In this document: positions 30,739 through 35,870 of the stretch, one piece after another | How positions within the stretch are numbered: the stretch's first letter is position 1 | Layout: every line of letters begins with the position of its first letter | Notes under the pieces: generated by a model | The model's database searches: none | What the model was told of the DNA's origin: nothing | The model's input: the letters and a program-made list of their open reading frames with translations, nothing else | Source: Antedon mediterranea | Lineage: Eukaryota; Echinodermata; Crinoidea; Comatulida; Antedonidae | Direction of reading: 5' to 3' | DNA: 64,000 nucleotides | NCBI RefSeq assembly: GCF_964355755.1 | Contig: NC_092680.1 | Location: 3,759,001 to 3,823,000 of the forward strand | Made by a program: the position numbers and the translations under genes

Positions 30739-33700
30739 TCAGATAATTAGTTTGGCACTGAAGTGAATGCCAATTTCCTTACACGCAAGATTCTGGAAGT
30801 GCTCTCTTTCTTCGAGGTTCTCTTGCATGGCTTCCATCAGCTGTAGGTATCGAAAGAGAGTGTCTCGTGGCCACAAAGTTTCTGTTGGTGTCCGTGATAA
30901 AATCTCTAGGTTATCGTGGACCATCTTCTCCCAATCTGAAAAACAAAAAGTTGAAACTTCCAAAGTGGAGTGTCCTCTTCATCCAGGTTGCTTGTGGCCA
31001 ACTCAGACATTGACAGCGTCGTACGACGATGAACATTAAACATGTTTAGAGTTCTCTCGACGACCTAAAAACTACGCCTGACGCTATCTCAAGACGTCGA
31101 CTCGTCTCGTCGGGATTCAACTCAGACAGCACCGAATAGTAAAGACGCTTCGTCGGGCCTCGTCCTACGACACTGTCTGCTGAGTTGTTGGCCTTACAAA
31201 ACACATTTTAGTATTTCAAAAGGCTATTTAACTTACTATCGGAAATCTTCTGAGTGTCCATCATACGATGACTAATGGTGTCCATCAATTCTGATTGGTT
31301 CATAGATCTAGAGGACGTCGTGTTCTTTCCATCCGCATTACTCTTTGCGGAATCCTTACTATCAATGTTCTCCATACTCGCAACAGATGAATGACTGGCA
31401 CGTCTGTAACGAACACATAAGTCACTCCTGATGAATTGTAAAAGGCGCAACGCAGCGACGTATCGACGCAAAGTGTTGTATTGCGTAATCACAAGTGGGA
31501 ACCGACGACGCAACAGTGCTGCAAACATTGTAGGTTTGATTTCACACGCAGGCCTTCCAATATTTGGAAGGGCATTTTCTTACGTTGCGTAGTTTTCGTC
31601 GCTAGTGGGAACCAAGCATTATAAGGTATTTCAAATTAAAATGATCACGTATAGGCCTATCGTATTATCGTCTTGGTTTATTTGTGAGTTTGTCTGTTAG
31701 CAAAGGTTTCGTCATAACTGGAATTTTACCACTCCATTAAATTTTGGAGGGTATGCAATACATAGTTAGGCATGCCCAACGCTCGTAGCTTAAAAAAAAA
31801 ACCGCACATATTACCTTGCTTTATTTAAGGCAATGTCGTGCTTATTGAGTTCGTCATTGAATTTTTCGGCATTTAATATCAGTTGGCGTGTTGTCTCGTG
31901 CTCCCGAACTTCGTCGAAAAGATCGTTGCGAATGTTCTGAAAGTTATTAACTGTTCAAAATACAATTACAATACCATAATTGGAACTTAGGCCGACATGA
32001 AACTTTCAAGCGTTGCAATGGAATCAGAAATTATCATATATTTATTACTGTAAATCTCTGTCTATATACTATCAAACTAGTTTATGGTGATATGCTCAAA
32101 TGGTATCGCTATGACATTTCTACAAATTTTTGTCACATAAAGTTTGATAGTGTAGACAGAGCTTTAGTCTTGAGTAACTTACCCATAATTCCTACGAAGA
32201 TATTACGGAAGATAAACGACCCAATACAAATCCAAAGGATGATGTAGAAAGTCGTGAAGAATTTATCAGAGACTTTCCAGATGTCAGTGAGAACTCTATG
32301 CCATTGGTCAAGAGTAAAGAGCTGAAAGAGCGTGATCATGGCGCGTCCAAGATTTCTGCAACAAAAAAAATTTAAATTGTGTCCACACACAAGAAAGAAA
32401 GAAAAAAAAACACTTCCATCAAACTTTAAGTGACAAAAAAAAGTGATGTGCCCATATATGGACATGCTGATGTCATATCACTACCATATTTAAGCATATC
32501 ACTACCATATTTTGGCACATCACATAAAATTTGATAGTGTAGACAGAGCTTTAGTTTAGTGAGTAACACGTATACCTACTTAAAACTGTCCTTGTAGACA
32601 AGATCCTTACGATCCGATCGCGAGTAACTGTCAAAAAAGATGACACCTGCGATAGCAAAGATGTAGGCGAATGTGAACAGTAGTAGCATGATGAACGTCA
32701 TTGCCTTTAACAAGAAAAAAATGGAGAAGCGTAGGCTGGTTGCCGTCTTGGAGGTTGCAAACATTAAAGCGGAACTACCCTAACACCCCAGCCTAGCGTC
32801 CCTAAAAATGATTGTAGTTTTAATCATTCATTGTCATTCTCCTCCTTATGGTATATGGTACAGATACCACATTATTTAGACTGGATGGATGGAAGTGTTT
32901 TTGTGAAAGGGTTGTCACTCCCCTCCCAGCCGTACCGTATCTTACTGAACAGATTCGTCCCTGATTAATAACGCAACTAGGACGCAAGGCAAGGACGTAC
33001 ACGCAACGAAAACGAGTTGACCAATGACAAGCGACAGAACCACGCATTGAAATCGTCCATCGTCTTTATTGTCATTCAGCGTTAAATAATGTATTCAAAT
33101 AATAAGTCGAATCAGGAAAGATCCTTTCTAAGGAAACAAACAAACTCCTTCCTGGTCGAATCGATGTTTAGTTGATGTGTTGAAAGAGCAGTATCGTTTT
33201 ATCCGCATTAATGTATTTATCATGGTGAAAAAAGGGCCCTACTGAATAATGTCTAGCCTAATTTTCATTTACTTACATTGAACGCTTTTGTAATTGCCAG
33301 AGCGATGAGTCGTACTTGTCTGAATCGAGAAACCATCTTAAGAGATCGTAGAATACGAAACACTCGCAAGTTGTTGACTATCACACGCACTTCTTTCAGA
33401 TCGCCTGCTGTAAAGGCAATCAACTCAGGAACAAATGACTTAAATGAACACAATTTTTATTTTATTATTCGGCCTATTCAGTTACGCATTTGTTTATGCT
33501 TCGATTGAAAAGGTTTTTTTTGTGAACAAAATTCGTTTACAAAATTATTCCGGAGAACATAATTAATTGAATATATGACTGTAGTTTACATTTTAACATG
33601 TTTCTTCAAATCTTAAGCTCTGTCTACACTCTGTGACAAAAAAATGTGATAAATGCCCATAATATGGACATGATGATGTCATACCACTAACATATTTTGG

Positions 33701-35870
33701 CACATCACACTTTTTTTGTCAAATTAGTTTGGGTAGTGTAGACAGACTTAATATTGTCTGTGACAAATGATGGTCATAGGACAACAGACATTGAAAACGG
33801 CGCATACAGGCCTACCCTAAACTGTTTGATCACACCAATAGACTCTGTATCGGCGGGGTTCAGATTGTCTTTCTTAAGCTTGGTTCCCACTATATGAGGC
33901 AACGCAAGGACATAGACGCAACGCAACCAAGATGACCAATGCCATCGCGTGTGATTGGACAACTCGCTTGCGTTGCGCTAACGTTTTTGCGTTGCGTCCT
34001 AGTGGGATTCAAGCTTTACCCCGACAGTGACTGTAAAATCAAAGATATTCCATCCGTTTCCCCAGAATGTCCAGAAGCTGTCAATCCACTTCAGAATGAT
34101 CTCCAACATAAACAGAATTAAGGAGCAGTAATCAAAGATGTCCAGAGCAAATCGCAAACCATCTAGGTCAGGATTTGTGTTACCAGATACTTCTGCAAGG
34201 ATGAATAATAATTAAAATGGTTGAAATAAAAAACAATACAATACGACGGATTTCGCGAGTGAAATTAATTGTGGGGTATTATTGGAATTTTTGGTCGACA
34301 GGGAAGAGTGAAGTCGACCGGTCTAATCCGTATCTGTTGGTGACGTAAGCGTCGTTTGGGAACGTTGATGTGTTCTCTCTCCCCTTCTTGCCGTTCGCCT
34401 GTCTAAAATGCCGCTAAAATAAACGTCGTTTCAGACGCTGTAAACAGTTACTCATACAGGATTAAGAAGGATAAAAGTGAAGCGAGAAGTAAGTAGGCTC
34501 TATATAATATAATGAATTGCGTAGGATCACAATGATGTCACGAGGCTAGGTCTATACTATCTCACCTGATTGTATTCCTAGCGCGATAGAATTGGTTAGA
34601 ATGAGGAATAACATTGAATTCTGAAATAGGGAGCATGTTTTAAAAAAGTCAAGAAAACATAATAACGTACTCATTGTAAATATGTTATGATATGCTCAAA
34701 TATGGTTGTGATCATCATCGTATCCATATAATTATGGGCACATCACATTGTTTTGTCCTAAAAGTTTTATAATGTAGACATATTATTTATTATCGGTGCT
34801 AACAATGAGGATGATGATGATGACAACGATGATGAACAATAAAGATGATGTTGTTGTGATGGCGATTATGATGGATGGCTGCTGACAAAATAAATGTAAA
34901 CTAATCATAATTACGCCGATGACGATAATAACAATAATTGATATTATTATCATCATATCATAATTATTATGGGGACGATGGTCATGTAGCTAAAATGATC
35001 TTAATGCTTAAGCTCTATCTACACTATCAAACTTTTAAAACAATGTGATGTGCCCATTGTGGACATGATGATTTCAAATGACTACCAAATTTGAGCATAT
35101 CACTCCCATATTTGGGCCCATCACACTAGTTTGATAGTGTAGACACAGAGTTTAATATTGAAAGGATACTCTCAAGAACAAAATGCGCCCACATATCCAA
35201 AGGTGGATTTTTAGAGTTCTTGTTCTTTACTCGATTCTTGCGTCTGTCGCTCATTTGTATTTGTGATTTATCTTTACTTGAATAGACTTGAAACTTAATC
35301 AACTCATTTGCATTATCCAGCATCACTTGGTTTAGAAATTCACTGTCTGAAAAAAAAATAAATAAAAGTAGGCCCAGTCCTAATTCTGTTTTGAACATGC
35401 TCTATGCATGAATTATGCTTGGTTCCCACTAGAGATCCAACACAAGAACGTAACGAAACGTAAGTGATTGTGACCAATCACAAGCGATGGATTATTCCAA
35501 TTGTCGCTTGTCATTGGCCAAATGCTGCCTCTACGTCCTTGCATTGCATCTCACGCTCCACCTATTAGGAACCAAGCTTAATGGGAAGCTTAGGCCGGGC
35601 CATGCGGTTGGGTTCAATTATCAATAATCAATCGATTGCTTATACATGATAATCGCAATATTTGGTTTGTTGATTATGATTCGTTTAGTATTGATGAGTT
35701 TTACCTGCCATGTCTTTTGAATAATGTACTGGGGCATCAACAAGTCCCTGTTCGTCAAAGCTGTCTAAAAGGTGAAAATCCTCAATAAGTTTTGAACGAA
35801 AAAGTTCGGCCTTGGCAGAGAGTTTCTCGTACAACAACTGTGACTTTCTGGCATTTTGTTCTTCCGCCAT
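30739..35870 (-). CDS. CATSPER2: Cation channel sperm-associated protein 2
   Basis: Pore-forming subunit of the sperm flagellar CatSper calcium channel. Exons in transcript order: 35705-35870, 35170-35346, about 34566-34637, 34020-34192, 33277-33438, 32580-32704, 32183-32355, 31815-31950, 31237-31403, 30739-30935; this gives 515 aa (human 530). It begins MAEEQNARKSQLLYEKLSAK. S1 is NSMLFLILTNSIALG; S2/S3 include LFMLEIILKWIDSFWTFW and WNIFDFTVTVG; S4 is LRVFRILRSLKMVSRFRQVR with basic residues every third position; S5 is MLLLFTFAYIFAIAGVIFF; the pore is LFQLFTLDQWHRVLTDIW, with TLDQW as the calcium filter region; S6 is ILWICIGSFIFRNIFVGIM. The C-terminus WEKMVHDNLE...LWPRDTLFRYL matches human CatSper2. 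The 5' edge of exon 3 is uncertain: the exon 2 donor is U12-like, and a plain AG acceptor at 34621 would break the frame. Confidence 0.93.
31443..31621. mobile_element. F2 foldback element, copy c, left end lost
   Basis: Shares GCGTAATCACAAGTGGGAA with copy a. Ends CGTCGCTAGTGGGAACCAAG. It lies in CATSPER2 intron 8. Confidence 0.75.
32051..32166. mobile_element. F1 foldback MITE, copy 12
   Basis: Ends TTTGATAGTGTAGACAGAGC just 17 bp from the donor of CATSPER2 exon 7. Confidence 0.88.
32411..32553. mobile_element. F1 foldback MITE, copy 13, left end decayed
   Basis: CCATCAAACTTTAAGTGACA to GATAGTGTAGACAGAGCTTT. Ends 27 bp from the donor of CATSPER2 exon 6. Confidence 0.88.
32955..33060. mobile_element. 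F2-related fragment, copy d
   Basis: ACGCAACTAGGACGCAAGGC and TGACCAATGACAAGCGACAG are internal F2 phrases; no clear ends remain. CATSPER2 intron 5. Confidence 0.5.
33614..33750. mobile_element. F1 foldback MITE, copy 14
   Basis: Starts TTAAGCTCTGTCTACACTCT, ends GGGTAGTGTAGACAGACTTA. CATSPER2 intron 4. Confidence 0.9.
33877..34015. mobile_element. F2 foldback element, copy e, inserted in a splice donor
   Basis: Ends AGCTTGGTTCCCACTA and TAGTGGGATTCAAGCT, flanked on both sides by TTA (33874-33876 and 34016-34018), a 3-bp target duplication of PIF/Harbinger type. On the minus strand the right duplicate plus the element's first bases form the donor of CATSPER2 exon 4. Confidence 0.92.
34690..34780. 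mobile_element. F1 foldback MITE, copy 15, strongly degenerate
   Basis: GATATGCTCAAATATGG, ATGGGCACATCACATTGTTT and AATGTAGACA are recognisable F1 pieces. Intron 2 of CATSPER2. Confidence 0.55.
35009..35154. mobile_element. F1 foldback MITE, copy 16
   Basis: Starts TTAAGCTCTATCTACACTAT, ends GATAGTGTAGACACAGAGTT. Lies 15 bp from the donor of CATSPER2 exon 2. Confidence 0.9.
35161..35169 (-). other. U12-type 5' splice site, CATSPER2 intron 2
   Basis: Minus strand reads GAGA then GTATCCTTT, the exact consensus of minor-spliceosome (U12) donors. Upstream of exon 3 the minus strand has TTTTCTTGAC (34648-34657), which differs from the U12 branch-site consensus at one position. Confidence 0.7.
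35415..35580. mobile_element. F2 foldback element, copy f
   Basis: Termini TGCTTGGTTCCCACTAGAG and TATTAGGAACCAAGCTTA. The interior has CCAATCACAAGCGATGG paired with TCGCTTGTCATTGGCC, so the arms extend inward. CATSPER2 intron 1. Confidence 0.88.

Follow-up and report, generated by a model that had tools for sequence, protein, structure and literature searches.

The window examined here, a 64,000-nucleotide stretch of the Antedon mediterranea genome, carries on its minus strand a gene whose top match across the entire six-helix channel domain was CatSper2. The preliminary description had named this gene CATSPER2, and the identity was confirmed when exons 2 to 8 were joined and compared with mouse CatSper2 (7eeb_B; E value of 1.3e-68, residues 80-357). 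Exon limits were taken from a reading of the sequence, and the numbering used here holds if the ATG at 35870 opens exon 1. Exon 4 ends in GTC GGG at 34020 in phase 0, reading ACTGTCGGG, and its join to exon 5, TVTVG/SFVPEL (slashes mark exon boundaries), was in frame and ungapped against VTLLSLLPEL of mouse CatSper2, in agreement with the earlier statement that the frame of the joined exons is intact. No inactivating lesions were seen in the rest of the gene by exon reading and homology, and no second copy of exon 4 was found in the assembly (18 contigs, 354 Mb). Intron 2 of the same gene (35169..34621, minus strand) opens with GTATCCTTTC, a U12-type donor; the CAG preceding AATTCAATG is out of frame, and a gap-free join to mouse VLDSSVF needs the intron to end in ...TTTTCTTGACTTTTTTAAAACAT/GC, which would make it a possible GT-AT minor-class intron.

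The G that directly follows the GGG of exon 4 (34019, minus strand) is derived from the gene, and it is followed by a TAA, an element of a family here called F2 and a second TAA (Table 1). Every base that the preliminary description quoted at the exon 4/F2 boundary was present exactly. Its view of TAA as the target duplication was upheld by the TAA/TAA flanks of the window copy and by the TWA flanks of family copies. Downstream of the second TAA, the sequence runs on as GAAAGACAATC from 33873 (minus strand). When the element and one TAA were deleted in silico, the remaining bases read GGG/GTAAGAAAG, i.e., GGG/GTAAGA, so that the GTAAGA donor previously derived by excision was reproduced from the window sequence. 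The rest of intron 4, approximately 440 nt besides the F2 element, supplies its acceptor and also contains a second MITE, of a family here called F1. F1 MITEs also lie approximately 15 to 20 nt 3' of the exon 2 and exon 7 donors (~35150 and ~32205, minus strand), and several CatSper2 introns thus begin nearly within a MITE.

Table 1. Features at the CatSper2 exon 4 donor, and conserved exons elsewhere in the genome that lie at a GTAAAG made by a MITE
Feature	Position	Strand	Evidence or remarks
CatSper2 exon 4 (S2-S3 region)	34020..34192	-	mouse CatSper2 homology; acceptor ccttgcag/AAGTAT
Present donor GTAAAG	34014..34019	-	G from gene, TAA from target duplication, AG from element
First TAA target-site duplication	34016..34018	-	sequence
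F2 MITE, 139 bp, AGCTTGAATCCC...GGGAACCAAGCT	33877..34015	-	imperfect internal inverted repeats
Second TAA target-site duplication	33874..33876	-	followed by GAAAG of former intron start
Second MITE, family F1, AGCTCTGTCTACACT...AGTGTAGACAGACTTAA	33613..33755 (approximate)		same intron
CatSper2 exon 5 (S4 region)	33277..33438	-	phase 0 join with exon 4; acceptor tttaag/TCATTT
Glycine-transporter-like SLC6 exon (F2), ...WEDITTPQ/GTAAAGCTTGG			CAG/GTAAAGCTTGG; PF00209, E 1e-13
5-Lipoxygenase-like exon (F2), ...GAIVNAHY			ACG/GTAAAGCTTGG; 5-LOX, E 2e-9
HIBCH-like exon (F1)			PF16113, E 5e-24
Argonaute exon (F1)			E 8e-22
DNA polymerase kappa exon (F1)			E 3e-17
Axonemal dynein heavy chain 6 (DNAH6-like) exon (F1)			E 4e-12
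DNAJC21/zuotin-like exon (F1)			E 1e-9
AKAP-like axonemal protein exon (F1)			E 2e-6

A genome search with the window element recovered a large dispersed family, with 83 scored matches out of 1,860 candidates. Exact F2 ends occurred 2,613 times as TAA+AGCTTGGTTCCCACTA and 1,438 times as TTA+AGCTTGGTTCCCACTA, and a reversed control pattern occurred 0 times. The copies were mostly 130 to 190 bp long, with inverted ends AGCTTGG.../...CCAMGCT and no coding capacity. The F1 family, for which 7,610 exact TAA ends were counted, likewise starts with AG after TWA. The exon 4 element is not a chance resemblance, as it is one member of a numerous repeat family whose ends it shares. The target bias of F2 extended past the duplication: G followed TAA in 574 of 1,438 ends (40%), compared to a G content of 17% in the window, and G preceded TAA in 672 of 2,613 ends (26%). 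Tandem MITE arrays were also encountered at C1:40739391-40740214 and C1:1256984-1257671, with a period of 67 bases for F2 ends and 134 bases for F1 ends.

Small size, terminal inverted repeats, high copy number and the lack of coding capacity are together the marks of a MITE, and all were found in F2. The preliminary description had called the element a foldback transposon, but it is better described as a MITE whose inverted repeats are long and imperfect and whose apparent target duplication is TWA (3 bp); on anatomy, a PIF/Harbinger-like (Tourist-like) MITE fits better. Classical FB elements possess long arms with internal repeats and duplicate 9 bp of their target. They resemble F2 in having inverted-repeat arms able to fold back (in the window copy, arms of 48 nt that are 75% complementary) but differ from this 139-bp element, whose duplication in the window is the 3-bp TAA and not 9 bp, and an FB element was rejected. 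PIF/Harbinger-type MITEs are moved by a DDE transposase and ORF1 supplied by an autonomous relative that shares their ends. Like F2, members of this group such as mPing and PIF are short and non-coding, carry terminal inverted repeats and have an extended target preference, which in mPing reaches past the 3-bp duplication (PMC2836001); they duplicate 3 bp of TAA/TTA, as the window copy of F2 appears to have done. The AGCT ends of F2 were unmatched here to any described family, and F2 is a putative member of the group. In a further departure from the PIF/Harbinger norm, the TAA/TTA flanks of F2 were discordant in approximately half of the copies checked: of 97 copies flanked by TWA at each end, in a sample picked for TAA on one side, 47 were discordant and the other 50 concordant (TAA..TTA, 43; TTA..TTA, 26; TAA..TAA, 24; TTA..TAA, 4; partly TAA selected). 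A strict 3-bp duplication rule is therefore less tidy than the window copy suggests, and the discordant flanks may reflect a TA duplication in some copies or a mixed mechanism. A 2-bp TA duplication, with an element reading AAGC...GCTT, suits the TAA/TTA-flanked copies; it fails for the window copy and for those in the 5-lipoxygenase-like (LOX) and Argonaute (AGO) genes.

The strength of the present donor was scored with a generic donor matrix across a stretch of 240 bases that spans the end of the exon (34100..33861). GTAAAG was the only positive-scoring GT among these bases, at 1.7 bits, with a runner-up at -1.4, and the inferred original GTAAGA scored 5.0 bits; the rebuilt donor is approximately 3 bits weaker because the G at +5 is lost. 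Pairing to U1 dropped by 2.7 kcal/mol, from -9.2 kcal/mol for the inferred original to -6.5 kcal/mol for GTAAAG, a value inside the range of CatSper2's other donors (exon 8, -6.6; exon 5, -7.0; exon 1, -8.5 kcal/mol), and those of exon 1 (GTAAAA) and exon 8 (GTAATA) are both without a +5 G. A bulged U1 register is known in principle for GTAAAG (PMC9311317); at this site it was less stable than the normal register (-5.4 versus -6.5 kcal/mol) and was rejected. The U1 genes of this genome have the standard 5' end ATACTTACCTG, and at least 42 of them lie in one single-strand array at C5:15664856-15752909, spaced mostly by ~1.86 kb. The description of the donor as rebuilt was supported, but with the +5 G gone it is weaker than the inferred original. 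The best reading is that the exon 4 donor would be usable yet weaker, and not as good as before. Loss of the +5 G could lead to intron retention or exon skipping, and read-through past exon 4 would add six codons, V-K-L-E-S-H, before a stop.

The same arrangement was surveyed at exact MITE ends preceded by GG, which could read G/GTAAAG; there were 87 such ends for F2, including that of the window, and 70 for F1. The flanks of all 86 other F2 and 70 F1 GG-TAA copies were read, and open frames ending at the junction were searched against databases. Open frames of at least 56 codons lay upstream of 14 of the 70 F1 ends and 9 of 98 controls; such frames are weak proof of an exon, and therefore only exons backed by database homology were counted, leaving out Paladin-like, SMYD4-like and other candidates that were plausible by eye. 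In at least eight genes besides CatSper2, a conserved coding exon was found at a GTAAAG made by a MITE, and both families were involved (Table 1). For the SLC6 gene, the next exon lies 1,068 nt on and is in frame, and the pair aligned ungapped to a glycine transporter (E value of 6e-32); for the 5-LOX-like gene, the next exon lies 732 nt on, also in frame and ungapped (E value of 1e-13). Ungapped in-frame junctions were thus obtained for three genes, including CatSper2, and the arrangement overall for nine; the exons of the six F1 genes, placed by exon homology, stop at or a few residues from the MITE-made GTAAAG. The empty donors predicted from clean-ended copies were GTAAGA for CatSper2 and LOX, GTAAGT for Argonaute and GTWAGT for SLC6. 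The +5 G in all four of these agrees with the prediction of the hypothesis but offers weak support, since G commonly follows the duplicated TWA in any case (20 of 33 F1 and 33 of 61 F2 copies). Judged from these loci, the remaking of a donor by a MITE is not unique to CATSPER2, and no published case of MITEs rebuilding donors in this way was found in the literature searched, which is not proof of absence. Among the 87 exact copies of GGTAAAGCTTGRWTCCCACTA, those on the minus contig strand (61) outnumbered those on the plus strand (26), an imbalance that was unexpected.

Taken together, these observations suggest, with a probability of approximately 85%, that an F2 MITE entered the TAA of a GTAAGA donor at CatSper2 exon 4 and that the weaker GTAAAG rebuilt there is the donor in use. 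Before the insertion, the empty site would have read GGGGTAAGAAAG. A non-autonomous DNA transposon targeting TAA/TTA would have entered the TAA within this donor, leaving G-TAA on the exon side, where the AG of the element would adjoin it and turn GTAAGA into GTAAAG. The former intron start (TAAGAAAG...) would have been displaced into the interior of the intron, and the element, now the first 139 nt of the intron past the duplicated TAA, would be removed with the rest of the intron from the rebuilt, weaker donor at 34020/34019, the site presumably used in RNA. The earlier proposal that the insertion struck the donor itself, TAA plus AG giving GTAAAG, is borne out by the window sequence and by the same layout at independent loci. 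That the element is simply intronic and its TAA duplication accidental is very improbable: TAA is short and common in a genome that is 67% A+T, but independent copies are flanked by TWA at both ends, and the placement of an element end at a donor recurs in unrelated genes.

A real insertion might instead have left GTAAAG too weak. Exon 4 would then be skipped for the most part, or its intron kept in the transcript, and the allele would be hypomorphic or in the course of being lost. The loss of the +5 G, the fall from 5.0 to 1.7 bits and a GGG exon end that is weak at -2 speak for this outcome, which we nevertheless regard as unlikely, given a gene otherwise without inactivating lesions, the similar lack of a +5 G at exons 1 and 8, and the several conserved genes carrying GTAAAG, which would be hard to explain if it did not work. 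Far less probable still is a gain of the kind brought about by introners, in which the intron boundary arrived with the element or was shifted by it and the ancestral exon was longer or the intron absent. Introners are known to obtain a splice site from their target duplication (Gozashti et al. 2022; PMC9860276), and the F2 case is like them in that element bases complete a splice site taken from the duplication. However, introners create a new intron, whereas F2 appears to have split and remade the donor of an old one: the intron sequence beyond the element, with its acceptor and second MITE, the conserved, gap-free exon 4/5 junction and the return of an ordinary GTAAGA at the same boundary upon removal of the element all stand against intron gain.

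A preference of F1 or F2 for donors was unsupported. GG-TAA accounted for 70 of 7,610 F1 ends (0.9%) and approximately 86 of 2,613 F2 ends (3.3%), compared to a window background of 121 GGTAA among 4,243 TAA (2.9%); if anything, F1 avoids the GG-TAA context. With thousands of copies, some insertions will fall on GTAAG. What seems notable is that insertions into donors of conserved genes persist; they may be tolerated by selection. They would persist because the target is the TAA of the donor, the duplication keeps GTAA and the AG terminus supplies AG at +5/+6 and not a less favourable pair.

A tentative extension, which we consider possible but rather doubtful, is that F1 and F2 are donor sparing, since with TAA as target and AG as start they convert GTAAG to GTAAAG without destroying it; that, with diverged copies included, probably dozens to hundreds of introns rely on transposon-made 5' splice sites; and that the AG end may persist by lowering the cost of insertion in genes. 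Apart from this extension, the affected loci amount to a natural 5' splice site experiment, in which GTAAGN has probably been changed to GTAAAG with approximately 100 to 180 nt of new intron start, independently, in many conserved genes, and they bear on how much splicing outlasts the loss of the +5 G across many exons together. At issue is whether the end sequence of a transposon and its choice of target can let a gene withstand an insertion at an essential splice site. The idea taken from introners, that a target duplication supplies a splice site, would be widened from the making of introns to the repair of introns that have been struck.
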